Shown here: positions 1,504-42,343 of the stretch, one piece after another
Layout of the letters: every line of letters starts with the position of its first letter
Numbering within the stretch: position 1 is the first letter of the stretch
Origin: a virus
Reading direction: 5' to 3' (one strand)
DNA length: 56,458 nucleotides
Virus record (IMG/VR): IMGVR_UViG_3300027906_002333
Location: 1-56,458 of that record
Program-made: the position numbers and the translations under genes
The notes under the pieces: generated by a model
Seen by the model: only the letters and a program-made list of their open reading frames with translations
Told to the model about the DNA's origin: nothing
Databases searched by the model: none

Positions 1504-3402
1504 TTATTTTACTTCTTCAAAATCAGCGTCAACTACATTGTCATCTTTAGCTTTTTCTTTAGGCTCTTTTGAGTCTGTAGTTTTCTTAGATGCTTCTTCT
1601 TCCTGTTGTTGCTTGTAAATAGCTTCTCCAAGTTTCATAGCATCTTGCGTCAAAGTTTCCGTTTTAGCTTTAATATCATCGCTATTAGAACCTTTAAGTG
1701 CTTCTTTTGTAGCTTCAAGACTAGCTTCTACTTTAGCTTTATCTTCTGCTGATAGTTTATCTCCGTGTTCTTTTAATTGTTTTTCAATATTAGCAACCAT
1801 GCCATCAGCATTGTTACGAGTATCTACTTCTTCACGTTTCTTTTTATCAGCATCTTTATTAGCTTCAGCGTCTTTTACCATTTTGTCGATTTCTTCTTCT
1901 GATAATCCGCCATCTGATTGTATTGTAATCTTTTGTTCTTTACCAGTACCTTTATCTTTAGCACTTACACTTACAATACCATTTGCGTCAATATCAAATG
2001 TTACTTCGATTTGTGGCATACCTCTTGGTGCAGGAGCAATACCGTCTAGCATAAAATTACCTAATGCTTTATTGTCTGCGGCCATTTCTCTTTCACCTTG
2101 AGTTACTACAATGTTTACTCCTGATTGATTATCTTCAGCAGTTGAAAAGACTTGACTCTTATTAGTAGGAATCGTTGTATTCTTTTCAATTAGTTTAGTT
2201 GCAACTCCGCCTAGTGTTTCAATACCAAGTGATAAAGGTGTAACGTCTAATAACAATACATCTTTAACATCACCTTGTAATACTCCACCTTGAATACCAG
2301 CACCTATGGCAACAACCTCATCTGGGTTAACGCCTTTGTGTGGTTCTTTGCCAAAGAAACTTTTTACTGTTTCTTCAACTTTAGGCATACGTGTCATACC
2401 ACCTACTAGGATAACTTCATCAATATCACTTGCAGTAAGTTCTGCATCTTTAAGAGCAGTCTTACAAGGTGTAAGTGTTCTTTCAATCAAGTCTCCTACT
2501 AGAGCTTCAAACTTTGCTCTTGTAAGTTTTACGTTTAAGTGTTTAGGTCCAGATGCATCAGCAGTAACAAACGGCAAACTAATTTCTGTTTGTGTAGCAG
2601 ATGATAGTTCACATTTTGCTTTTTCAGATGCTTCTTTAACACGTTGCATAGCAAGTTTATCTGTTCTTAAGTCCATGCCTGAGTCTTTCATAAACTCATC
2701 ACAAACATAGTTTACAAGAGTGTTATCAAAGTCTTCACCACCTAATGATGTATCACCATTAGTTGACTTAACTTCAAATACTCCTTCGCCGATTTCTAAG
2801 ACAGAAACGTCAAACGTTCCACCACCTAAGTCATAAACTGCAACTGTGCCTGATTTCTTTTTATCTAAACCATATGCAAGTGCGGCCGCGGTTGGCTCGT
2901 TAACTATACGTTCAACTTCAAGTCCTGCAATTTTACCTGCGTCTTTTGTTGCTTGTCTTTGTGAATCGTTAAAGTATGCAGGTACAGTAATAATAGCTTT
3001 ATCTACTTTACTACCTAAATACTCTTCAGCAGTTTCTTTCATCTTCTGTAAAGTGAAAGCAGAGATTTGTGAAGGCGAATACTTTTCACCTTTTGCTTCT
3101 ATCCAAGCATCTCCGTTGTCTGCTTTGATTATTTTGAATGGAGAAGTTTTCATGTCCTTTTGTACGGACTTATCATTAAACTTCTTACCTATTAGTCTTT
3201 TAACTGCAAAGATAGTATTCTCTGGGTTAGTTACTGCTTGTCTTTTTGCCGCAACTCCTACTAGCTTTTCATCGCCAAAAGATACGATTGAAGGCGTTGT
3301 TCTAACTCCTTCACTATTTTCTATGACTTTAGCATCACCACCTTGCATTACTGAAACACAAGAATTAGTAGTACCTAAGTCAATACCAATTATTTTGCTC
3401 AT
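1504..3402 (-). CDS. dnaK: DnaK (Hsp70) chaperone, full length
   Basis: A full-length 632-residue Hsp70. It opens with [13 protein letters not shown], contains the [12 protein letters not shown] phosphate loop, the GGMTRMP helix and the [10 protein letters not shown] segment, then a substrate-binding domain and an acidic tail ending DADFEEVK. The start at 3402 is chosen over an upstream ATG because AAGGAGGAG lies just before it. Its leader (TTAATAAGGAG...AAAAC) is nearly identical to that of the hsp20 gene. A complete DnaK is uncommon in phages; DnaJ and GrpE are not visible, so host cochaperones must serve it. Confidence 0.97.
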
Positions 3403-3469
3403 AGTTTTCTCCTCCTTATTAAGCAAAGAGTAGGGTGTGCATTACACACACCCTATCATTCTTTTTGTT

Positions 3470-4049: not shown

Positions 4050-4604
4050 CTACCTAATATGGACAAAAAAGAAGTGATTTAAGCTATAACGACCTGATCC
4101 TTTAATAGGCTTTACTTCGTGTTGTACGAAGCTAGGAAACAGTATTAACGAGTTGTTTTTAAGATGTGGTACATAATTATAGTCAGAAAATGATAGTTGC
4201 CCACCTGTAAATTGTTTTGGCTCTTTGAATAATAATGTTACTGCTGACAATACTCCTAGGTCAGGATGAAGGTCATAACTGCCATCTCCATTATAGCAAT
4301 TAAGTTGAGTAACATCAAAGTTACACATCTTTAAATAATTTGAAAAGATGTTCTCTGACAAGTCTAGATCAAATATCTTTCTATTGTATCTTAGAATACT
4401 GCTTACGTATCTATCTTCTTTGTAGTGTTTATCTAAATGAACTGCGTTCATATTACTACTTTTAGGATCGCCATTGTCTTTTGTATCAGTGGCGTGTTGA
4501 TTTAGATAATCTATTTCAGAAAATACACTAGGAAGTTCTGCGTCTTCAAAGAAATCGTCTATGATAGTGTGTACGAAAGGTTTCTGATGAGTACTAATCT
4601 GCAT
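4050..4604 (-). CDS. 2OG-Fe(II) oxygenase, prolyl-hydroxylase-like
   Basis: A 184-residue single-domain protein. The iron triad is visible as His113-x-Asp115 (HPD) and His162, with Arg172 (GRYSLN) placed to bind 2-oxoglutarate. [10 protein letters not shown] lies between them as in prolyl 4-hydroxylase-type enzymes. Such enzymes hydroxylate proteins or small molecules using O2 and 2-oxoglutarate. The target is unknown. The gene overlaps guaC upstream by 11 bases. It is one of five putative 2OG oxygenases in this window. Confidence 0.85.
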
Positions 4605-5643
4605 TGAACTGATTGAATACTTGGTTAACCTGTTGTGTACATCTTACAAACGTTGTACACTTAGGCATATCTTTTAAACGTCTTGCACCAATGTAAGTAC
4701 AAGCACTTCTAACACCTCCAAGTATTTCAGTAATAGTTGCGTCGACAGGTCCTTTGTGTGGAATCTTAACTACTTTACCTTCAGCACCTCTGTATCCATC
4801 TTTTCTACGACCATGTCTTTGCATAGCTTCATCTGAACTCATACCATAGAACGTAACTTTGCCATCTATAATTTCGCCTTCTGATTCGTCGTGTCCTGCT
4901 AACATACCACCTAGCATAACAAAGTGTGTACCTGCTCCAAAGGCTTTTGCAACATCACCTGGATATACACAACCACCATCAGCAATAATGTGTCCACCTA
5001 TACCATTCGCGGCATCAACACATTCTATTACGCCTGACAGTTGTGGAACTCCTACACCAGTTTGTAATCTAGTTGTACATACTGAACCTGGTCCAATACC
5101 AACTTTAACAATGTCTGCTCCACGTATAATAAGTTCTTCTGTCATCTCTGCGGTAACAACGTTACCAGCAATAATAGTTTTGTCTGGATAGTTATCTCTC
5201 ATTCGAGCAATAAAGTCTCCGAAGTTTTCATGATAAGCATTTGCAACATCAACAGTAATAAATTTAATATCTGGAAATGCTTCTAATACTCTTACCATAG
5301 TGTTATAATCTTTAGCATCTTTATCCCAGATATAACCTGTACCTGTGCATACACTAAGGTACTTCATTTTAATTCCTTGCGACTTTTGTTCCCAGTCTTC
5401 AAATGAATTGTGCTTACCTATTACAGTTAGCATCTTATGATCTTGTAATACTTTAGCCATACTAAATGTACCAACTCCGTCCATATTACTTGACATAATA
5501 GGAACACCAGTCCAGTGATTGCCACTATTGTGGAATTGGAAAGTTCTAATAAGATCAACATCTCTTCGACTTTCTAATTTAGATCTCTTCGGCTTGAATA
5601 AGACGTCTTTGTAGTCTAGTTTAATGTCATCTTCAATTCTCAT
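4594..5643 (-). CDS. guaC: GMP reductase
   Basis: A 349-residue IMPDH/GMPR-family barrel. The catalytic cysteine lies in [12 protein letters not shown], followed by the GHIIADGGC phosphate site, the [16 protein letters not shown] loop, and YRGAEGK near the flap. There is no CBS insert, and the overall motif set fits GMP reductase rather than IMP dehydrogenase. It converts GMP to IMP with NADPH, feeding purine salvage, which fits the phage's ribonucleotide reductase. It overlaps 2OG oxygenase genes on both sides. Confidence 0.92.
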
Positions 5644-12192: not shown

Positions 12193-12295
12193 TGGCTCTG
12201 GGGGTAGGACTCGAACCTACACGGTTAAATATATTGCAGTACATTTAGCCATACGAGAAACAATCGTACGTGTCTACCAATTCCACCACCCCAGA
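12193..12295 (-). tRNA. tRNA-Asn(GUU)-like with type II long variable arm
   Basis: A complete 103-base tRNA fold with encoded CCA. The acceptor stem TCTGGGG/CCCCAGA is perfect. The D-arm has the GTGGAATTGGTAGACAC pattern of tRNA-Leu. The anticodon stem TACGA/TCGTA encloses loop TTGTTTC, giving anticodon GUU. The T-arm GTAGG/CCTAC holds loop TTCGAGT. The variable region is 31 bases with an eight-position stem containing one mismatch. U1:A72, G73 and GUU match tRNA-Asn identity, but tRNA-Asn is normally a short-variable-arm tRNA, and U at position 37 is unusual. It follows the AsnRS-like gene by one small ORF. Confidence 0.8.
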
Positions 12296-12298
12296 TCG

Positions 12299-12457
12299 TT
12301 ATTTTACGTTTACTATCCTCTTTAATAGTTCAACGTACTTTTTAATATTTTTACGTTTCCTTTTCTTAACAACTTTTGGGTGTTCTTTCTTTTCAGGCAA
12401 TATAGCACCTGTTGTAATATAGTGTAATGTTAAAGGATTGTTAGGATCGTAAGCCAT
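12299..12457 (-). CDS. Small basic protein, 52 aa, between AsnRS-like gene and tRNA
   Basis: A 52-residue protein whose ATG overlaps the stop of the AsnRS-like gene (TAATG), implying translational coupling. It has a hydrophobic/polar N-terminus (TLHYITTGAILP) and a Lys-rich C-terminal half (KKRKRKNIKKY). Its tail ends four bases before the long-arm tRNA. A role as an RNA-binding partner of the synthetase is attractive but only inferred. Confidence 0.6.
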   Translation of the reverse strand: MAYDPNNPLTLHYITTGAILPEKKEHPKVVKKRKRKNIKKYVELLKRIVNVK

Positions 12458-13332
12458 TAACAAGCCGCCACTGGATCGTGTGTTAACGATGCCATTTGCT
12501 CTACTCTTGTCTCTGGGTTCTCTAGTCTATCTAATGCACTTATCATACGTGTCATTCCTATACCACCACCTACTCTTGGAAAGAAGTCGTGTTTTAAGAA
12601 CGTTTCTAGTTCTTCTTCTACTCTTTCTTTACCAAACTTGTCAAACAGTAAGTTACTGTAAGCACCTTCAGTAATTGTATGGAAAGTATCTCGCATTTGC
12701 TCTACATCAGTTGAACGTTCTGCACTACCTATTGTTTCCATTCCACCTAGTATTACATCTATCTTTTTACTTGTACCATCAGTATTTCTACTCATGTTCC
12801 AGAAAGGACTTGTAAACTCTGGGAAGTCTGTAATCATAGTTGTATAATAGTTTTCAAACATTTTAGTTTCATGCTCTGCCGTTAGCTCTCCTTCAATGCC
12901 GTATTCTTCTTGCCATTCGGCATAAGTCTTTTCTGTGGGCATCTTAAAGCCTAAGTGTTGACATAGTTCGTATTCCATCTTTTTAAGATCATCTATGTCA
13001 CCTGGCATTTCAAATTCAAACATTGGAAATATTATATCATGTCTACCTGGTATTGCATTAGGTTCTTGTCTGTAGGAAGTGGAGACACAAAAAAACCCCT
13101 TCGAAGAGGGGCGTGTAAGTAATTCGTATTCTAGCCACATCTGGCCCGTTTGCGGTAACGGCCAAACTTGTCCTGCATAATTGTATGTTGCTACATTAAA
13201 AGGATCTTCACACGCCGCCAGTATGCTTAATCTGTTTTGTGTGTGTACTTCTTCAAATCCTTTATTCAAAAAAAATGACCTTAAAAGGCCAACTGTCTTC
13301 GTAAATTTACTCGGGTTTATTAATTGCGTCAT
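12457..13332 (-). CDS. Minimal AsnRS/AspRS-like class II synthetase core
   Basis: A 291-residue class II catalytic core. Motif 1 region is SFFLNKGFEEV, motif 2 is STSYRQEP followed by RHDIIFPMFEFEM, and motif 3 is GGGIGMTRMISALDRL with its ATP-contacting Arg. It is closest in pattern to AsnRS/AspRS and their paralogues, but lacks the N-terminal OB-fold anticodon-binding domain. Family alternatives are asparagine synthetase AsnA, an EpmA-like protein ligase, or a tRNA-charging enzyme. The adjacent tRNA with an Asn anticodon favours tRNA aminoacylation. An internal terminator-like hairpin lies at 13089-13111. Confidence 0.75.
   Translation of the reverse strand: MTQLINPSKFTKTVGLLRSFFLNKGFEEVHTQNRLSILAACEDPFNVATYNYAGQVWPLPQTGQMWLEYELLTRPSSKGFFCVSTSYRQEPNAIPGRHDIIFPMFEFEMPGDIDDLKKMEYELCQHLGFKMPTEKTYAEWQEEYGIEGELTAEHETKMFENYYTTMITDFPEFTSPFWNMSRNTDGTSKKIDVILGGMETIGSAERSTDVEQMRDTFHTITEGAYSNLLFDKFGKERVEEELETFLKHDFFPRVGGGIGMTRMISALDRLENPETRVEQMASLTHDPVAAC
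13089..13111 (-). terminator. Intragenic terminator-like hairpin in AsnRS-like gene
   Basis: CCCCT, loop CTTCGA, AGGGG, then seven T on the minus strand, inside the coding region. It has the form of a Rho-independent terminator and could truncate the transcript. Confidence 0.45.
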
Positions 13333-13831: not shown

Positions 13832-13860
13832 ATTATAGCAGAGTTGCTATGGCTTGTCAA
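13832..13860 (-). promoter_or_regulatory. Consensus sigma70 promoter for the tRNA/AsnRS-like segment
   Basis: TTGACA, 17-base spacer, TATAAT on the minus strand: a perfect consensus overlapping the stop of the oxygenase gene. Downstream are tRNA-Ala, -Glu, -Asp and possibly the AsnRS-like gene. Confidence 0.75.
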
Positions 13861-14924
13861 CCTAATAATGGATTTGATGGATTAACTTCTAAATACTTAC
13901 CCCATTCGGCGTAATAATGACGCATACCAACTTCATCGTGTATAGTATGATTCTCGTGTCTACCATGTAAAATGTTTCTACGTTCAGTACCTGGAGCCAT
14001 TGATGCACCTTGTCCTGTAACGCCTAACAAGTCTTCGTGTAAGTTTCTACCAAAAGGTCCCCAAATAGTATTATGGTGTCTAATACGAGTTTGTCTTTCT
14101 TCTGGTGTATCTTTCTTTAGTCCGTATCCTCTAAATTCAATTAGTACACTATTAGGTCCTAAAGGAGTTACACTATCTGAACGATATGCACTACCACGTA
14201 GGTTAAAGTTAAAGCCAGGAAATAAGTCAACCATATACCATTGATTGGGCGGTAAGTTAGGAAAACTTAATTCTCCTCTATCACCTTCCTTATCAAACTC
14301 TGTATAGTTGACAGTAAAAGAACTAACATTAACGTGGCCGTTATCGAACGCAATATTCTTACGAGCAAAGTATTCATCATTAAATCCTGTTACACGATTG
14401 AAGTAGTGCATAAAGTCATGATAAAATTCACTGTTAGTATCGTGCCATAGTTTATAGTTAGTAGGAATGATTGCTTTATGATAATGGAATACTTCTAATT
14501 CCTCTGTATCAATAGCATCAGCTATACAATCAAATGCACCTGCTGTCCATTGTTCTACAGTTTGATCAGGTTCAGGGTTTAATGTTACCCATATCATACC
14601 TCCGTGCTTTACTTCCAAATGCAACTGTGGTTCAACAGTTACAATAGGTGCTCCTAATGTTCCTGCTGGTGTTTGATTACCATAGTTACGATATGCTTTA
14701 AATCCTTTGCCTGTATTATATACAAGAACATTAACACCTGCTATCTGTGTTGTTCTAAAGTCTAACTCATTTGGTAGTTCACTTTTATGACACATAGGTA
14801 TCCAAACCTTACTAAAGATTTGTTCTTGTTCTTTATCGTGTATGTCTTGATTGTTATAGCACTCGCTACTAATATATTCTACTTTTGGTTCTGCTAACCA
14901 ATTTCTATGATTGCGTGGTGGCAT
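13857..14924 (-). CDS. Rieske oxygenase alpha-subunit-like protein lacking the Rieske ligands
   Basis: A 355-residue protein with the fold pattern of ring-hydroxylating oxygenases: a beta-rich N-terminal domain (GVNVLVYNTGKGFKAYRN), HGGMIWVTLNPEP, and a C-terminal catalytic domain with NYKLWHDTNSEFYHDFMH (His169, His173) and a late NLHEDLLGVTGQGA acidic segment. At the place where CxH...CxxH should bind the 2Fe-2S cluster it reads NYGNQTPAG, and no CxH or CxxH pair occurs in the N-terminal domain. The His spacing is also one residue shorter than usual. It cannot receive electrons by the normal route. A late-promoter element lies at 14953-14959. Confidence 0.75.
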   Translation of the reverse strand: MPPRNHRNWLAEPKVEYISSECYNNQDIHDKEQEQIFSKVWIPMCHKSELPNELDFRTTQIAGVNVLVYNTGKGFKAYRNYGNQTPAGTLGAPIVTVEPQLHLEVKHGGMIWVTLNPEPDQTVEQWTAGAFDCIADAIDTEELEVFHYHKAIIPTNYKLWHDTNSEFYHDFMHYFNRVTGFNDEYFARKNIAFDNGHVNVSSFTVNYTEFDKEGDRGELSFPNLPPNQWYMVDLFPGFNFNLRGSAYRSDSVTPLGPNSVLIEFRGYGLKKDTPEERQTRIRHHNTIWGPFGRNLHEDLLGVTGQGASMAPGTERRNILHGRHENHTIHDEVGMRHYYAEWGKYLEVNPSNPLLG

Positions 14925-14984
14925 TCTACTTACTCCTTCTCACCTAGCTAGATATTTATTTGTAGTATTCTAAAAGTATTATAG

Positions 14985-15310
14985 GCTTTGTCTATGTAGA
15001 AATAGACGCAACGTTTCTGTTGCTAGGTACGTTGCCAACCCCGAGTGATTATGCCGCTAGGGCAAAATCCTCATTTACCGCAGTTACTGGCGCAGAAAAA
15101 TCTACGAAAGTAACGTTGGTTAGTGCATTATCGTTTGCATCTATAACGTTTGTTCGCGTTAACGGAGCTTACATCCCGGTAATCTCGTTCAACCTTAACA
15201 AGCCAGTCGATCCTATTTCTACCCCGTAGGGGGTGTATTGAAATGGTGGAGTAGCCGGGTATCGCACCCGGGTCCTGCTCTTGTGACATACGTTGCTGTC
15301 ATCAATTACA
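14985..15310 (-). ncRNA. ssrA: Circularly permuted two-piece tmRNA
   Basis: On the minus strand the acceptor piece comes first (T-arm CCGGG/CCCGG, then CTACTCC, A, CCA at 15244-15246), then an 18-base spacer, then the coding piece opening GGGGTAG at 15225. GGGGTAG and CTACTCC form a seven-pair acceptor stem. The tag reading frame resumes at GCA (15138), directly after a TAGAT context like the E. coli TAGTC, and runs 29 codons (ANDNALTNV ... VNEDFALAA) to TAA at 15049. The C-terminal ALAA is the classic protease signal. A hairpin at 14990-15007 probably closes the coding piece; outer ends are approximate. SmpB is not seen and must come from the host. Confidence 0.9.
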
Positions 15311-15336
15311 GTAATATTTAGCCTTAATATGCTACT

Positions 15337-15365
15337 ATTATAGGAAAAGAGATAACTAATGTCAA
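15337..15365 (-). promoter_or_regulatory. Consensus sigma70 promoter for the tmRNA
   Basis: TTGACA, 17-base spacer, TATAAT on the minus strand, placing the transcription start about 20-25 bases before the acceptor piece. Confidence 0.75.
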
Positions 15366-15375
15366 AGGAAAAACA

Positions 15376-17067: not shown

Positions 17068-17352
17068 CTAGTGGTTGTGGTTCATTCCTGTATTTTCCAT
17101 AACCTCAACTAATTGTTCATACCCTCCTACATACTTACCGTGTAGTATAATCTGCGGAGCAGTTCTTGGCATAGGTAAGTTATTCAGTTCAAACTCTTTT
17201 ATTAAAGTTTCAACTTGGATATCCTTTCCAATTACACTTTCAGTATAAGGAATCTTCTTGTTATCTAATAACATCTTTGCTTTTACACAAGAAGGACAAT
17301 TAGGTTTAGAATATACAACGGTAGTACTAGGTGTAGCTTGTTTAGTTTCCAT
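17068..17352 (-). CDS. Glutaredoxin, likely NrdC role
   Basis: A 94-residue glutaredoxin with active site CPSC in VYSKPNCPSCVKAK and the cis-Pro region PRTAPQIILHGKYVGGYEQL. It overlaps nrdB by one base, so it probably reduces the phage class Ia ribonucleotide reductase. Confidence 0.92.
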   Translation of the reverse strand: METKQATPSTTVVYSKPNCPSCVKAKMLLDNKKIPYTESVIGKDIQVETLIKEFELNNLPMPRTAPQIILHGKYVGGYEQLVEVMENTGMNHNH

Positions 17353-18455
17353 TATAGTTTAAATCCTTTTAGTGAGTCAGTACTGACATCTTGTTTAATA
17401 CCACCAACAATATAACTTTCAACTTCTGTTTCTTGTGGTGCTACTTGTAATCCTGAAGAACTCAACCAATGCTGTGTCCATGGTAGAGGATTCTGTGTTG
17501 ATGGTGTATCAAATATAGGTTTGTATCCTAATGCTTTAAGTCTTCTGTTAGCAATATATTCTACATAGTTTCCTAATAGTTTTTCATTAAGACCAATAAT
17601 AGATCCATCTTTCATTAAATGATGTGCCCAAGCCTTTTCTTCGTCAACGCAGGTCTTCCACATTTCATAAACTTCAGCTTCACACTCTTTTGCAATAGAG
17701 GCCATTTCTTTATCGTCTTCACCACGCATCCAGTTCTTAATTATGTGTGAACTTAATGCAAGGTGTTGACTTTCATCTCTAGCTATTAAACTAACAATCT
17801 TTGCAGAACCTTCCATAAGTTTTAGTTCACCAAATGCAAAGGTACAAGCAAAAGAAACATAAAAACGTAATCCTTCTAAGATGTTTACGTTCATCATCGC
17901 TAAGAACAACTTCTTCTTAACATCTCTCATTGTGCCTTTCTTTAAGTGTATAAACTTATCCGCGGCTTCTGTGAACGCATCATAGTTTTTAGTAACACTA
18001 ATTGCACGTTCAATAATTTTATCATCTTCTAATATAGTATCTAATACTTCACTAGGGTCAGCATATACGTTCTTCATAATGTGTGTATAAGAACGACTGT
18101 GTATAGTTTCAAAGAAATCCCAAGTAACAATACAACCTTCTAGTTCAGGTATACTTACGTGTGGTAAGAAAGCTAAACATGGTCCTCTACCTTGTACACT
18201 ATCTAATAGTGTTTGGTATTTTAGATTTGCCGTGAAGATGTGTTTTTGCTCAGGACGAAAATTTGCATAATCGCTTCTATCCTTTTGTAATGAAACCTCT
18301 TCAGGTCTCCAAAAGTAACCTAGCATTGTTTGATTTAATTTATCAAATACTGGAAATTTGAATACATCATACCTTTGTGTATTCTGATCGGGTCCAAAGA
18401 ACATGGTGCTCTTTGTAAAGTCTACTTTTTCTCTGTTAAATACTGTTTTTGCCAC
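17352..18455 (-). CDS. nrdB: Ribonucleotide reductase class Ia beta subunit
   Basis: A 367-residue NrdB. The iron ligands and radical tyrosine are in place: TLLDSVQG (Asp84 equivalent), FFETIHSRSYTH (Glu115, His118, Tyr122), LEGLRFY (Glu204) and RDESQHL (Glu238, His241). It supplies the tyrosyl radical for NrdA. It forms a nrdA-nrdB-grx operon. Confidence 0.97.
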   Translation of the reverse strand: MAKTVFNREKVDFTKSTMFFGPDQNTQRYDVFKFPVFDKLNQTMLGYFWRPEEVSLQKDRSDYANFRPEQKHIFTANLKYQTLLDSVQGRGPCLAFLPHVSIPELEGCIVTWDFFETIHSRSYTHIMKNVYADPSEVLDTILEDDKIIERAISVTKNYDAFTEAADKFIHLKKGTMRDVKKKLFLAMMNVNILEGLRFYVSFACTFAFGELKLMEGSAKIVSLIARDESQHLALSSHIIKNWMRGEDDKEMASIAKECEAEVYEMWKTCVDEEKAWAHHLMKDGSIIGLNEKLLGNYVEYIANRRLKALGYKPIFDTPSTQNPLPWTQHWLSSSGLQVAPQETEVESYIVGGIKQDVSTDSLKGFKL

Positions 18456-18468
18456 TTATTGATCCTTC

Positions 18469-20802
18469 CTATATAGCACAACTGTCACATACTTCTTCTT
18501 CATCTTCTAGTGGTTTACCATCTGGAAGTCCAACTTGTGGTTCAAAAGAATTTGTAGTCTCCGTTTTAATTTCCTCTTCACTTGGATCAGACTTGAAATC
18601 GTAAGTGTTTTGATAGTAAGATGTTTTCCAACCATACTTGTAAGTTGTTAACATATCTTGTAACATAACACTCATTGGAACTTCATTGTTCTCAAAGTGA
18701 GTTGGGTTATATGACCAATTACCACTAATGGCTTGATCAAAGAACTTCTGCATTACTGCTACGATATTTATGTAGCCTTCGTTACTAGGCATATCCCATA
18801 ACAAAGTGTAATTATTTTTTAATGTAGTATACTGCGGAACAATCTGCTTAAGAGGCCCTTTTTTACTCTTTTTAACGGACAAGAATCCTCTAGGTGGTTC
18901 GATTCCGTTTGTGGCGTTCGACACAATGGAACTGCTCTCCGAAGGCATTTGTGCGGACAATGTGCTGTGCCGTAGACCATGGGCTGATATGTCCTTGCGA
19001 AGAGAATCCCAATCATATTTTAATGTTATTGAACATACTTCGTCCAACTCCTTTTTATATGTGTCAATCGGCATAATGCCATCACTATATTTAGTGCGAT
19101 CAAAGTACTCACATTTTCCTTTTTCTTTTGCTAATTCGTTACTTGCTACTAACAAATAATATTGAAATGCTTCAGATAGTTCGTGTACTTTAGTAAGTGC
19201 TTTCTTATCTGAATACTTACAACCTTGTTTTGCTAGATAATGTGCAAGTCCAATGTATCCTACTCCTAGTGAACGTCTAGCTTTAGTACTAACCTCTGCG
19301 GCTTTCACTGGATACTTCTGATAATCAATAACTTCGTCTAAAGCTCTTACTGCCAAACCACATAAGTCTTGTAACTCATCTAAGTCTTTTAGTGTTCCAA
19401 CATTAATAGCAGAAAGAATACATAATGCAATTTCTCCTTCTGGGTCATCAATGTGTTGTAAAGGTTTAGTAGGAAGTGTAATCTCTTGACATAAGTTACT
19501 CATATATACTGTGTCTTTAAATGAACTGTGTGTATTAGAATGATCAACGTTCATTAAATAGATACGTCCTGTTTCAGCTCTCTCCTTGATTAGAGCAGAA
19601 AACAATTCCATTGCTTTAATCTTACGTTTCCTCAAAGAAGTTTTACGTTCATATTTTACATATAATTCTTCAAACAACTTTTGGTCGGCATAGAAAGCCT
19701 CATATAAATCTGGTACATCGTGTGGTGAGAAAAGAGTTATGTCGGCGTCTTGTAAGAGCCTTTCGTACATTAATTTATTCAGTTGAATTGAATAATCTAA
19801 TCTACGTACTCTGTTATCCTCTGTACCTTTATTATTTTTTAGTACAAGGATATCATCTATTTCATAATGCCATAAAGGGAAGTGAGTAGTTGCGTTACCA
19901 CCACGTACTCCATTCTGCGTACAACATCTTACAGTTGACTCGAATTTTTTTAGAAACGGAATCAAGCCAGTGTGTGCTACCTCACCACCTCGTATCTTAG
20001 AATTGATAGCTCTAATACGTCCTGCATTAATTCCTATCCCTGCTCTTTGTGCCGTGTATCTACCAATGGCCATATCACTCGAAAAAATAGAATCAAGGGT
20101 GTCATCAGTATCAACAAGAACACATGAAGCAAACTGTCTAAGAGGAGTACGTACACCGGCCATGATTGGCGTCGGGATATTGATTTTAAAAAGTGAGGTC
20201 GCATCATAATATCTCCTTACATATTGCATACGTGTTTCTTTAGGATAGTCAGCAAATAATGTCGCCGCTATCATCATATACATAACTTGTGGTGATTCGT
20301 ATATTTCTCCTGTACTTCTGTCTTGTACAAGGTACTTGTCAACAATTTGTCTTAGCCCTGCATAGGTAAAGTTTTCATCTCTATTATGTTTGATGTATTT
20401 GTTGAGTTGTTTTAATTCTGTTTCAGTATATTTTTCTTTAATAGACTCGTCGTAGACTCCGCCTTTTATATTTCTATCTATAATTTTAAGTAATGAAATC
20501 GGATTGTACTGACCAAACGTTTCTTTATAGATAGGGTAAAGTAATAATCTTGCCGCGGCGTATTGATAGTTGGGATTTTCCAACGTAATCAGATCGTTAG
20601 CAGACTTAATAAGTATCTCTTGTATTTCTTCTGTAGACATTCCATCATAAAATTGAATATTAGCCGTCATTTCAATTTGTGAGGCACTTGTTCCTGTTAG
20701 CCCTTCGGTGGCTTCTTCAACAACAAAATGAATTTTATTAATGTCTAGGGGTTCTACTGAACCATCGCGTTTTTTGATTTGTATACCAACGCCATTTGAC
20801 AT
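18469..20802 (-). CDS. nrdA: Ribonucleotide reductase class Ia alpha subunit
   Basis: A 777-residue NrdA. It has an N-terminal ATP-cone (IKKRDGSVEPLDINKIHF), active-site ASCVLVDT and NLCQEITLP, the radical-transfer tyrosine pair in KTSYYQNT, and a C-terminal CDSCAI redox tail for glutaredoxin. It reduces ribonucleoside diphosphates to deoxy forms for phage DNA synthesis. Confidence 0.97.
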   Translation of the reverse strand: MSNGVGIQIKKRDGSVEPLDINKIHFVVEEATEGLTGTSASQIEMTANIQFYDGMSTEEIQEILIKSANDLITLENPNYQYAAARLLLYPIYKETFGQYNPISLLKIIDRNIKGGVYDESIKEKYTETELKQLNKYIKHNRDENFTYAGLRQIVDKYLVQDRSTGEIYESPQVMYMMIAATLFADYPKETRMQYVRRYYDATSLFKINIPTPIMAGVRTPLRQFASCVLVDTDDTLDSIFSSDMAIGRYTAQRAGIGINAGRIRAINSKIRGGEVAHTGLIPFLKKFESTVRCCTQNGVRGGNATTHFPLWHYEIDDILVLKNNKGTEDNRVRRLDYSIQLNKLMYERLLQDADITLFSPHDVPDLYEAFYADQKLFEELYVKYERKTSLRKRKIKAMELFSALIKERAETGRIYLMNVDHSNTHSSFKDTVYMSNLCQEITLPTKPLQHIDDPEGEIALCILSAINVGTLKDLDELQDLCGLAVRALDEVIDYQKYPVKAAEVSTKARRSLGVGYIGLAHYLAKQGCKYSDKKALTKVHELSEAFQYYLLVASNELAKEKGKCEYFDRTKYSDGIMPIDTYKKELDEVCSITLKYDWDSLRKDISAHGLRHSTLSAQMPSESSSIVSNATNGIEPPRGFLSVKKSKKGPLKQIVPQYTTLKNNYTLLWDMPSNEGYINIVAVMQKFFDQAISGNWSYNPTHFENNEVPMSVMLQDMLTTYKYGWKTSYYQNTYDFKSDPSEEEIKTETTNSFEPQVGLPDGKPLEDEEEVCDSCAI

Positions 20803-41021: not shown

Positions 41022-41214
41022 AGTTTTAAAAGATTTTTGGAAACAATGCGATCAAGTCAGTAAAGAATTGCACCAGAATGGCTATCAAGTCCACTATCAT
41101 CACGGAGGAGTGTTTGTTCATCATATAGAGCCTCCAAAGAAAACTACCCACATAAATACTACAGATGATAGACTTAACAAAGTTCAAAGAAAAGATACAA
41201 GAACTAAAAGATAA
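41005..41214 (+). CDS. Hypothetical protein, 69 aa, overlapping both neighbours
   Basis: Starts MLKWFKVLKDFWKQCDQVSKEL, then HHGGVFVHHIEPP. It overlaps the methyltransferase end and the ALA synthase start. No strong ribosome site. May be real given the amphipathic N-terminus. Confidence 0.4.
   Translation: MLKWFKVLKDFWKQCDQVSKELHQNGYQVHYHHGGVFVHHIEPPKKTTHINTTDDRLNKVQRKDTRTKR
41152..41159 (+). promoter_or_regulatory. Late promoter abutting the ALA synthase gene
   Basis: ATAAATAC on the plus strand, five bases before the ATG at 41165. No ribosome site lies between them, so a leaderless message is likely. Confidence 0.6.
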
Positions 41215-42343
41215 CGGTAATTACCGTGTCTTTAACGATATACTCCGCGAGAGGGGAGATTATCCCAATGCGATATGGTACGGGAAGTACGCAATTAAAA
41301 ACATTGTAAATTGGTGTTCTAATGATTATCTTGGAATGGGACAACACAAAGTGGTGCTCGATGCCATGCATACCGCCCTTGATCAAACAGGTGCCGGTTC
41401 GGGTGGAACTAGAAACATCGCTGGAACAAGTCATTATCATGTAGCACTAGAGCACGAGTTAGCCAAATTGCATAGCAAACAGTCAGCTCTACTCTTTACA
41501 TCAGCTTATGTGGCAAATGAATGGTCACTAATTGCTTTGAAACGTATCATTCCCGACATTGTGTTTTTAAGTGATAGCAAGAATCATGCTTCTTTAATAC
41601 AAGGAATAAGACACAGTGGTGCTGAAAAGAAAATTTTCAAGCACAATGATCTAGAGCAATTAGAGGAACTACTGCGAGACGTCAAAGGAACACCTTGCAT
41701 AGTCTTTGAGTCCGTGTATAGCATGGATGGATACGTCAGTAAATTACCAGAAATTGTTGCATTGGCTAAGAAGTACAATGCCATCACGTACCTCGACGAG
41801 GTTCACGCCGTTGGCCTGTATGGTGAAACAGGTGCTGGATATTCAGCAAAGCTAAGATCACAGGATCAAATCGACATACTGAATGGCACATTAGGTAAAG
41901 CCTTTGGAGTTCAGGGCGGATACATAGCAGGGAAGTCTGACGTTATAGACGCAATTCGTTCTGTCTCCTCTGGCTTTATTTTTACAACATCAATGAGTCC
42001 AGTTATTTGTGCAGGAGCATTGGCAAGTGTCAAGTACTTAAAAGATCACAACGACCTAAGAGAAAAACATCAAGAACGTGCTAAAAGATTAAAGAATTTA
42101 TTTAGAAACAGAGGAATTCCAATAATGGAGAACGAAACACACATTGTTCCGGTTACTGTGGGCGATGCCAAAAAGTGTAAACAGATTAGTGATGAATTAA
42201 TAAATGAATATGGAATATATGTTCAGGCAATAAATTATCCAACTGTTGATGTAGGCACAGAACGTCTACGTTTTGCTCCGACTCCATTCCACACGAATGC
42301 AATGATGCATTCACTATGCGATGCTCTAGAAAAAGTATTGTAG
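41165..42343 (+). CDS. hemA: 5-aminolevulinate synthase (ALAS, Shemin pathway)
   Basis: A 392-residue PLP enzyme of the alpha-oxoamine synthase group. WCSNDYLGMGQHKVVL, GAGSGGTRNIAGTSHYHVALEHELA, the SDSKNHASLIQGIRHS stretch, FESVYSMDGYVSKLPEI, TYLDEVHAVGLYG and GTLGKAFGVQGGYI (PLP lysine) match ALAS closely. It condenses glycine and succinyl-CoA to 5-aminolevulinate, the committed step of alphaproteobacterial haem synthesis. Shemin-pathway genes have been reported in aquatic phage sequences. Confidence 0.9.
   Translation: MIDLTKFKEKIQELKDNGNYRVFNDILRERGDYPNAIWYGKYAIKNIVNWCSNDYLGMGQHKVVLDAMHTALDQTGAGSGGTRNIAGTSHYHVALEHELAKLHSKQSALLFTSAYVANEWSLIALKRIIPDIVFLSDSKNHASLIQGIRHSGAEKKIFKHNDLEQLEELLRDVKGTPCIVFESVYSMDGYVSKLPEIVALAKKYNAITYLDEVHAVGLYGETGAGYSAKLRSQDQIDILNGTLGKAFGVQGGYIAGKSDVIDAIRSVSSGFIFTTSMSPVICAGALASVKYLKDHNDLREKHQERAKRLKNLFRNRGIPIMENETHIVPVTVGDAKKCKQISDELINEYGIYVQAINYPTVDVGTERLRFAPTPFHTNAMMHSLCDALEKVL

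Follow-up and report, generated by a model that had tools for sequence, protein, structure and literature searches.

A type II tRNA-Asn gene and an adjoining gene for a small AsnRS-like enzyme, encoded in a 56,458-nucleotide stretch of viral DNA (IMG/VR record IMGVR_UViG_3300027906_002333, analyzed at full length and called the window below), may form a metabolic module for pyrimidine synthesis that brings its own tRNA, rather than a pair for decoding; we put the probability of this reading at about 0.5. Directly observed were the conservation and linkage of the two genes, the loss of decoding features from the tRNA, the pyrimidine gene neighborhood of the enzyme, and missing CarB and PyrB in cellular genomes that carry it, and from these we infer the role of the tRNA and the reaction chemistry, including a direct use of Asn-tRNA. 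The tRNA and the AsnRS-like core in the window are genuine (Table 1), and the pair extends more widely, and is stranger, than the initial annotation of this DNA had proposed, though probably for a different reason.

Table 1. Positions of the genes and elements of the window discussed in the text
Feature	Position	Strand	Remarks
Hsp70/DnaK gene	1504-3426	-	Full length; 901 bits
IMP dehydrogenase/GMP reductase family protein	4594-5643	-	Same strand; nucleotide-metabolism context
Type II tRNA-Asn(GUU)	12193-12295	-	103 nt including encoded CCA; class II D-arm; 31-nt variable arm
Anticodon GUU of this tRNA	12259-12261	-	
52-aa basic ORF	12299-12457	-	Between enzyme and tRNA; stop shortly before tRNA
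AsnRS-core "mini-AsnRS"	12457-13332	-	291 aa; phrog_29758; anticodon-binding domain absent
Ring-hydroxylating-dioxygenase-like (Rieske) protein	13857-14924	-	Just upstream of tRNA cluster
tmRNA gene	14958-15369	-	Permuted, two-piece, alphaproteobacterial type; Rfam 125 bits; tag AVNEDFALAA (ARAGORN)
Ribonucleotide reductase small subunit	17352-18455	-	Same strand; nucleotide-metabolism context
Ribonucleotide reductase large subunit	18469-20802	-	Same strand; nucleotide-metabolism context
Class I/II aminotransferase-fold enzyme	41165-42343	+	Resembles 5-aminolevulinate synthase; close homologue in L109, a related contig

The initial annotation had recognized a class II core of the AsnRS/AspRS type without an anticodon-binding domain, and Pfam, AlphaFold, and Foldseek agree with this description. 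The enzyme matches Pfam tRNA-synt_2 with 59 bits and phrog_29758, a family annotated as function unknown, with 426 bits. It falls far below the cutoffs for AsnS (TIGR00457; 30.4 bits, cutoff = 342.6) and asparagine synthetase A (NF005055; 18 bits, cutoff = 389), and a Pfam search gave no match to PF03590. The AlphaFold model, made with 68 homologues, has a pLDDT of 89 and a pTM of 0.86, and a Foldseek search of the PDB was led by AsnRS structures (best match 1x54 with Asn-adenylate; E = 3e-17; 18% identity), followed by AspRS. The Foldseek matches and the invariant residues, including E68, R206, and those of motifs 2 and 3, point to a class II catalytic core with an Asn pocket, and the core stands alone, without an OB-fold, in both the sequence and the model. 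E68 (in LPQTGQMWLE) and R206 (in METIGSAERS) are invariant from phages to archaea and align with Asn pocket residues of AsnRS. The phage enzymes are strongly acidic (mean net charge, -19), which is unlike a typical RNA binder and counts against direct handling of the tRNA.

The first description of the tRNA was correct in each detail (U1:A72, G73, GUU, U37, a Leu-like D-arm, and a 31-base arm), and the full fold that it claimed agrees with a match to the Rfam tRNA model (47 bits, E = 6e-8) and with covariation; ARAGORN run on the window did not call this gene. The acceptor stem (UCUGGGG/CCCCAGA) gives U1:A72, and the 3' end is GCCA, with G73. The Leu-like D-arm, GUGGAAUUGGUAGACAC, is preceded by UG and followed by G, the anticodon stem (UACGA/UCGUA) encloses the loop UUGUUUC, which presents GUU with U37 and C38, and the T-arm, GUAGGUUCGAGUCCUAC, is placed 3' of the variable region. 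In an alignment of 37 homologous tRNAs, standard pairs make up 99.6% of paired cells, two-sided changes occur at 17 of 23 pairs, and 171 cells are compensatory, versus 37 in shuffles and 5 to 18 in slid controls. The excess over shuffles indicates that the fold, including the helix of the variable arm, is under selection.

The suggestion that tRNA and enzyme are a true pair is borne out by their conservation. In nearly all of the first 80 IMG/VR relatives and the Prochlorococcus phages P-SSM7, P-SSM2, and P-SSM5, where the enzyme is annotated as "tRNA ligase" (T4-GC 194), a GUU tRNA lies directly 3' of the enzyme gene. A wider sample held 231 distinct phage enzymes, 219 of them evaluable (with enough downstream sequence), and a type II tRNA-Asn follows the enzyme in 198 of these 219, after a gap of ~10 to 45 nt in most relatives. 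The remaining 21 comprise ~11 loci where, judged by eye, a tRNA whose variable arm is reduced or whose T-loop has C55 had been rejected or classed as short-armed by the parser and ~10 where the enzyme is truly without this tRNA. Two huge phages encode the enzyme at 45 to 49% identity together with an ordinary type I tRNA-Asn elsewhere and without a type II tRNA, and no type II tRNA-Asn was found elsewhere in contigs G001 to G005, which lack an adjacent copy. The 52-aa basic protein, initially taken to be coupled to the enzyme, is not conserved: its homologues are limited to three near-identical contigs, and it is probably outside the module. The three-gene co-occurrence expected in related phages thus holds for enzyme and tRNA and fails for this protein. 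In the enzyme tree, a single clade (support, 0.93) unites the phage enzymes and lies within cellular enzymes that have no such tRNA, which makes a single gain of the tRNA, on the phage side, probable. Three or four bacterial or archaeal MAG contigs within the clade (L110, L111, L112, and L113, the last with the tRNA too) look like misbinned phage DNA.

Comparison of the 198 enzyme-adjacent type II tRNAs with the 89 other tRNAs of the same loci indicates that elements for charging and for amidation by GatCAB were held and those for decoding were not. G73 is present in all 198 and U1:A72 in 197. GUU is constant, partly by construction because the scan selected for this anticodon; no second anticodon was seen beside the enzyme, nor, in this GUU-selected set, the ordinary Leu anticodon that would have contradicted the initial annotation. 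The bacterial Asn identity set consists of the anticodon and G73, and GatCAB uses U1-A72 as determinant and G1-C72 and U20a as antideterminants (PMC9976931); the same GatCAB rule is given in PMC4206432, which adds that some bacteria make asparagine on tRNA only. The D-loops of the phage tRNAs (GGUA) are without U20a. At the decoding end, a purine at position 37 occurs in only 17 of the 198 and U33, which makes the anticodon U-turn, in 173; the other 25 have C, A, or G, and the loss of U33 maps to ~17 changes on the enzyme tree. The comparison tRNAs, in contrast, have U33 in 89/89 cases and purine 37 in 88/89. Loop positions 33, 37, and 38 vary across the family, and the window tRNA has U33 but U37. 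The variable arm, 31 nt in the window and 13 to 39 nt in the family, shrinks to 5 to 7 nt in one clade (L349, L353, L361, L366, and L417), in which the pairing with the enzyme is kept. The RNA resembles a canonical tRNA-Asn in GUU, G73, and U1:A72 but departs from it in U33 with purine 37 and in the type I variable loop (4 to 5 nt). These sequence constraints suggest that the phage tRNA has been kept chargeable and amidatable while its decoding features were released, and it is probably largely non-decoding.

Homologues of the enzyme at 50 to 65% identity are scattered among bacteria and archaea (Patescibacteria, Aureispira and other Bacteroidota, Midichloriaceae, Pasteurella atlantica, Myxococcota, and Woesearchaeota), and no such tRNA was found near these cellular genes. 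Their recurrent neighbors encode OMP decarboxylase, dihydroorotate dehydrogenase, a phosphoribosyltransferase, and PRPP synthetase. By a profile count, pyrD-, pyrE-, or pyrF-type genes lie within 4 kb of the enzyme gene in 26 of 72 cellular loci, in several phyla; a few of these are cross-hits (e.g., an IMPDH-like protein in L162), so roughly a third of the 72 loci is the safe figure. Phages also include the pair in pyrimidine operons, with the order pyrD-enzyme-tRNA-pyrE in L189, L225, and L236 and enzyme-tRNA-pyrF-pyrD in L255, and PRPP synthetase follows the tRNA in L012/L015. A pyr-type gene was present in the searched flank in only 23 of 231 phage loci, and no pyrD, pyrE, or pyrF gene was found in the window, which encodes other proteins of nucleotide metabolism (Table 1).

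Presence and absence of pathway genes, scored against profile cutoffs in 27 genomes with the enzyme and 14 control genomes, follow the same direction. PyrB exceeded the cutoff in 1, CarB in 2, PyrC in 1, and PyrF in 23 of the 27 enzyme genomes, whereas PyrB, CarB, and PyrF were each present in 14/14 controls. In the family of Aureispira, PyrB was found in 0/2 genomes with the enzyme and 55/59 without it (hypergeometric probability, ~0.008). PyrC had no match at all in 15 of the 27, and eight large Bacteroidota/Myxococcota genomes keep a dihydroorotase-like protein of 198 to 261 bits, below the PyrC cutoff, so the product of the enzyme could be carbamoyl-aspartate. Complementarity to the replaced enzymes is thus seen for PyrB and CarB and is less clear for PyrC. 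Some of these genomes are small or host dependent and could be those of auxotrophs on imported intermediates. True AsnRS coexists with the enzyme in 15 of the 27 genomes, AsnB-family proteins occur in 16, and AsnA occurs in 3; because AsnRS and asparagine synthetases coexist with it in many genomes, the enzyme does not simply fill either role, and the idea that cells with the enzyme depend on it as their sole AsnRS or asparagine synthetase is not supported. Membership of the enzyme family in pyrimidine metabolism is well supported, and we consider a pyrimidine function of the family very likely.

We propose that the enzyme is a paralogue of the class II synthetase core in which an AsnRS-like site for asparagine and ATP would have been retained. 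In cells, it would replace carbamoyl-phosphate synthetase, aspartate carbamoyltransferase, and probably dihydroorotase and would feed PyrD, PyrE, and PyrF. Asparagine, bicarbonate, and ATP would yield dihydroorotate, or a precursor of it, independently of carbamoyl phosphate, which fits the missing CarB: an asparagine carbamate would be adenylated and the side-chain amide nitrogen would then close the ring, with the side-chain nitrogen becoming N3 and the bicarbonate carbon becoming C2 of dihydroorotate. In composition, dihydroorotate equals asparagine plus CO2 minus H2O, and dethiobiotin synthetase, which closes its ureido ring, offers an analogy for the ring closure. This chemistry is a tentative proposal. 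By acquiring the cellular enzyme, phages would have bypassed the first steps of the host pathway, which are usually under feedback control, and they would have joined to it a tRNA-Asn dedicated to this purpose. This tRNA, in which GUU, G73, and U1:A72 are kept, would receive asparagine through host AspRS/AsnRS and GatCAB, would be excluded from the ribosome by its noncanonical loop, and would be the source from which the enzyme takes its asparagine; where the host makes asparagine only on tRNA, the dedicated tRNA-Asn would tap the AspRS/GatCAB route for the phage. That the tRNA serves as an asparagine carrier is a somewhat firmer proposal than the chemistry, at a little less than even odds. 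Because no such tRNA adjoins the cellular homologues, the reaction does not inherently require it, and the tRNA-less cellular genes, together with the acidic phage enzymes and those without a tRNA, argue against direct tRNA handling. The whole route, a tRNA-dependent pyrimidine synthesis in which asparagine on a non-decoding phage tRNA reacts with bicarbonate and ATP to give dihydroorotate, is rather unlikely to be right in every part. In the open-access literature, we found no known synthetase-like pyrimidine enzyme and no such phage pair.

A private aminoacylation pair, in which the enzyme would charge the type II tRNA with Asn or another amino acid for decoding and would recognize it through the acceptor end or the long arm, would suit the tight adjacency and co-conservation of the two genes and the AsnRS-like active site with intact class II motifs. 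However, U33 has been lost repeatedly, pyrimidine 37 is typical, GUU is invariant yet an anticodon-reading domain is absent from the enzyme, the enzyme is strongly acidic, and the cellular homologues sit beside a true AsnRS in 15/27 genomes and follow pyrimidine genes, not translation. Recognition of the long arm by the enzyme is likewise weakened by the clade in which the arm is reduced and the pairing is kept. We therefore regard this explanation as very unlikely, and of the initial interpretation there remain the pair itself and "amino-acid synthesis on tRNA," which it had listed as an option; the 52-aa partner falls away, and private decoding and long-arm recognition are weakened. Another account that keeps the tRNA in translation has its loop changes escaping host anticodon nucleases and the enzyme ensuring its charging. 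Phage tRNAs with anticodon-loop mutations have been proposed to evade VapC-type nucleases (PMC10264068), and positions 33, 37, and 38 are variable here, but loss of U33 would harm the decoding needed of a replacement tRNA, the remaining phage tRNAs of the same loci retain U33 and R37, and the pyrimidine operons and missing PyrB/CarB stay unexplained, which makes evasion highly improbable.

It is unlikely, too, that an AS-AR/AsnA-like ligase makes free asparagine, with enzyme and tRNA-Asn both relieving an asparagine bottleneck in translation. AsnA and archaeal AS-AR are also class II cores without an anticodon domain, the NCBIfam model of asparagine synthetase A gives a weak match (18 bits), and Asn/Asp pocket residues are conserved; on the other hand, the linkage to pyrD/E/F and the missing CarB/PyrB would be unexplained, enzyme genomes already have AsnB-family proteins (16/27) or AsnA (3/27), the fold search was led by AsnRS and not by AsnA or AS-AR, and the loop of the tRNA has not been maintained for decoding. 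Equally unlikely is a pyrimidine enzyme with a hitch-hiking tRNA-Asn that replaces charged tRNA lost to asparagine consumption. The cellular homologues without a tRNA and the phages with the enzyme only speak for it, but a replacement for use in translation should retain U33 and purine 37, and a normal type I tRNA-Asn would be better suited to that use.

The pyrimidine module with its own tRNA has partial parallels among known systems. AsnRS (AsnS, class IIb) shares the catalytic fold (1x54), motifs 2 and 3, and the pocket-aligned E68 and R206 with the enzyme, which differs in having no OB-fold, in its low similarity (18% identity, 30 versus 343 bits), and in being linked to pyrimidine genes and coexisting with true AsnRS. 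Archaeal AS-AR and E. coli AsnA are likewise metabolic paralogues of the AsnRS/AspRS core without an anticodon domain, but the match is only 18 bits, they are absent from the best 50 fold matches, and the genomic context of the enzyme is pyrimidine synthesis rather than asparagine supply. CarAB-PyrB-PyrC probably represent its functional slot, feeding PyrD/PyrE/PyrF; their folds are unrelated to it, and asparagine and bicarbonate would, if the proposal is right, replace carbamoyl phosphate and aspartate. The staphylococcal cell-wall tRNA-Gly is a dedicated non-translational tRNA that also has chargeability kept and decoding features relaxed, whereas the present tRNA is phage encoded, adjoins a synthetase paralogue, and is sometimes located inside pyrimidine operons. 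GluQ-RS, a truncated synthetase paralogue with a core without an anticodon domain, is similarly tied to a tRNA, but such paralogues belong to another class and another pathway, and we saw no sign of tRNA modification here. A queuosine or GluQ-RS-like modification of G34 is disfavored, as TGT requires a UGU motif and the C33, A33, and G33 variants break it.

De novo pyrimidine synthesis is taught as a single near-universal pathway. If the proposal is true, the replacement of its first steps by a synthetase-derived enzyme in scattered bacteria and archaea would constitute a new route and would account for genomes with PyrF but without PyrB, and marine phages carry this enzyme widely. With a dedicated tRNA that can be charged but has not been maintained for decoding, nucleotide synthesis would join the tasks of tRNA outside translation, and a large class of phage tRNAs would gain a concrete function.

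Several further observations were made along the way. A nearly invariant stretch, UGCAAUAUAUUUA, recurs in the long variable arms of many loci (L021, L030, and L060 among them); it is more conserved than a stem requires and is possibly a protein or processing site. The tRNAs of L400 and L406, 3' of the enzyme, have the T-loop GGUCCGA (C55 for U55) and C33, a further loss of standard tRNA features. In P-SSM2 (NC_006883.2; L082), the annotated tRNA-Asn, PSSM2_199, is ~2 kb off the real tRNA, which lies at L082:5814-5902, directly after the "tRNA ligase" gene. An argininosuccinate-lyase-like gene directly upstream of the cellular enzyme (L119, L135, L183, and L184; Patescibacteria and Cytophagaceae) hints at a further pathway partner. 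Marine viral contigs (L189 to L268) commonly encode a short dihydroorotate dehydrogenase-like protein of ~230 aa; most of the 171 stretches confirmed for it have no copy of the enzyme close by. The window also carries a tmRNA gene, an aminotransferase-fold gene, and an Hsp70/DnaK gene (Table 1), and its Rieske-like gene recurs beside the pair in ~15 related contigs.
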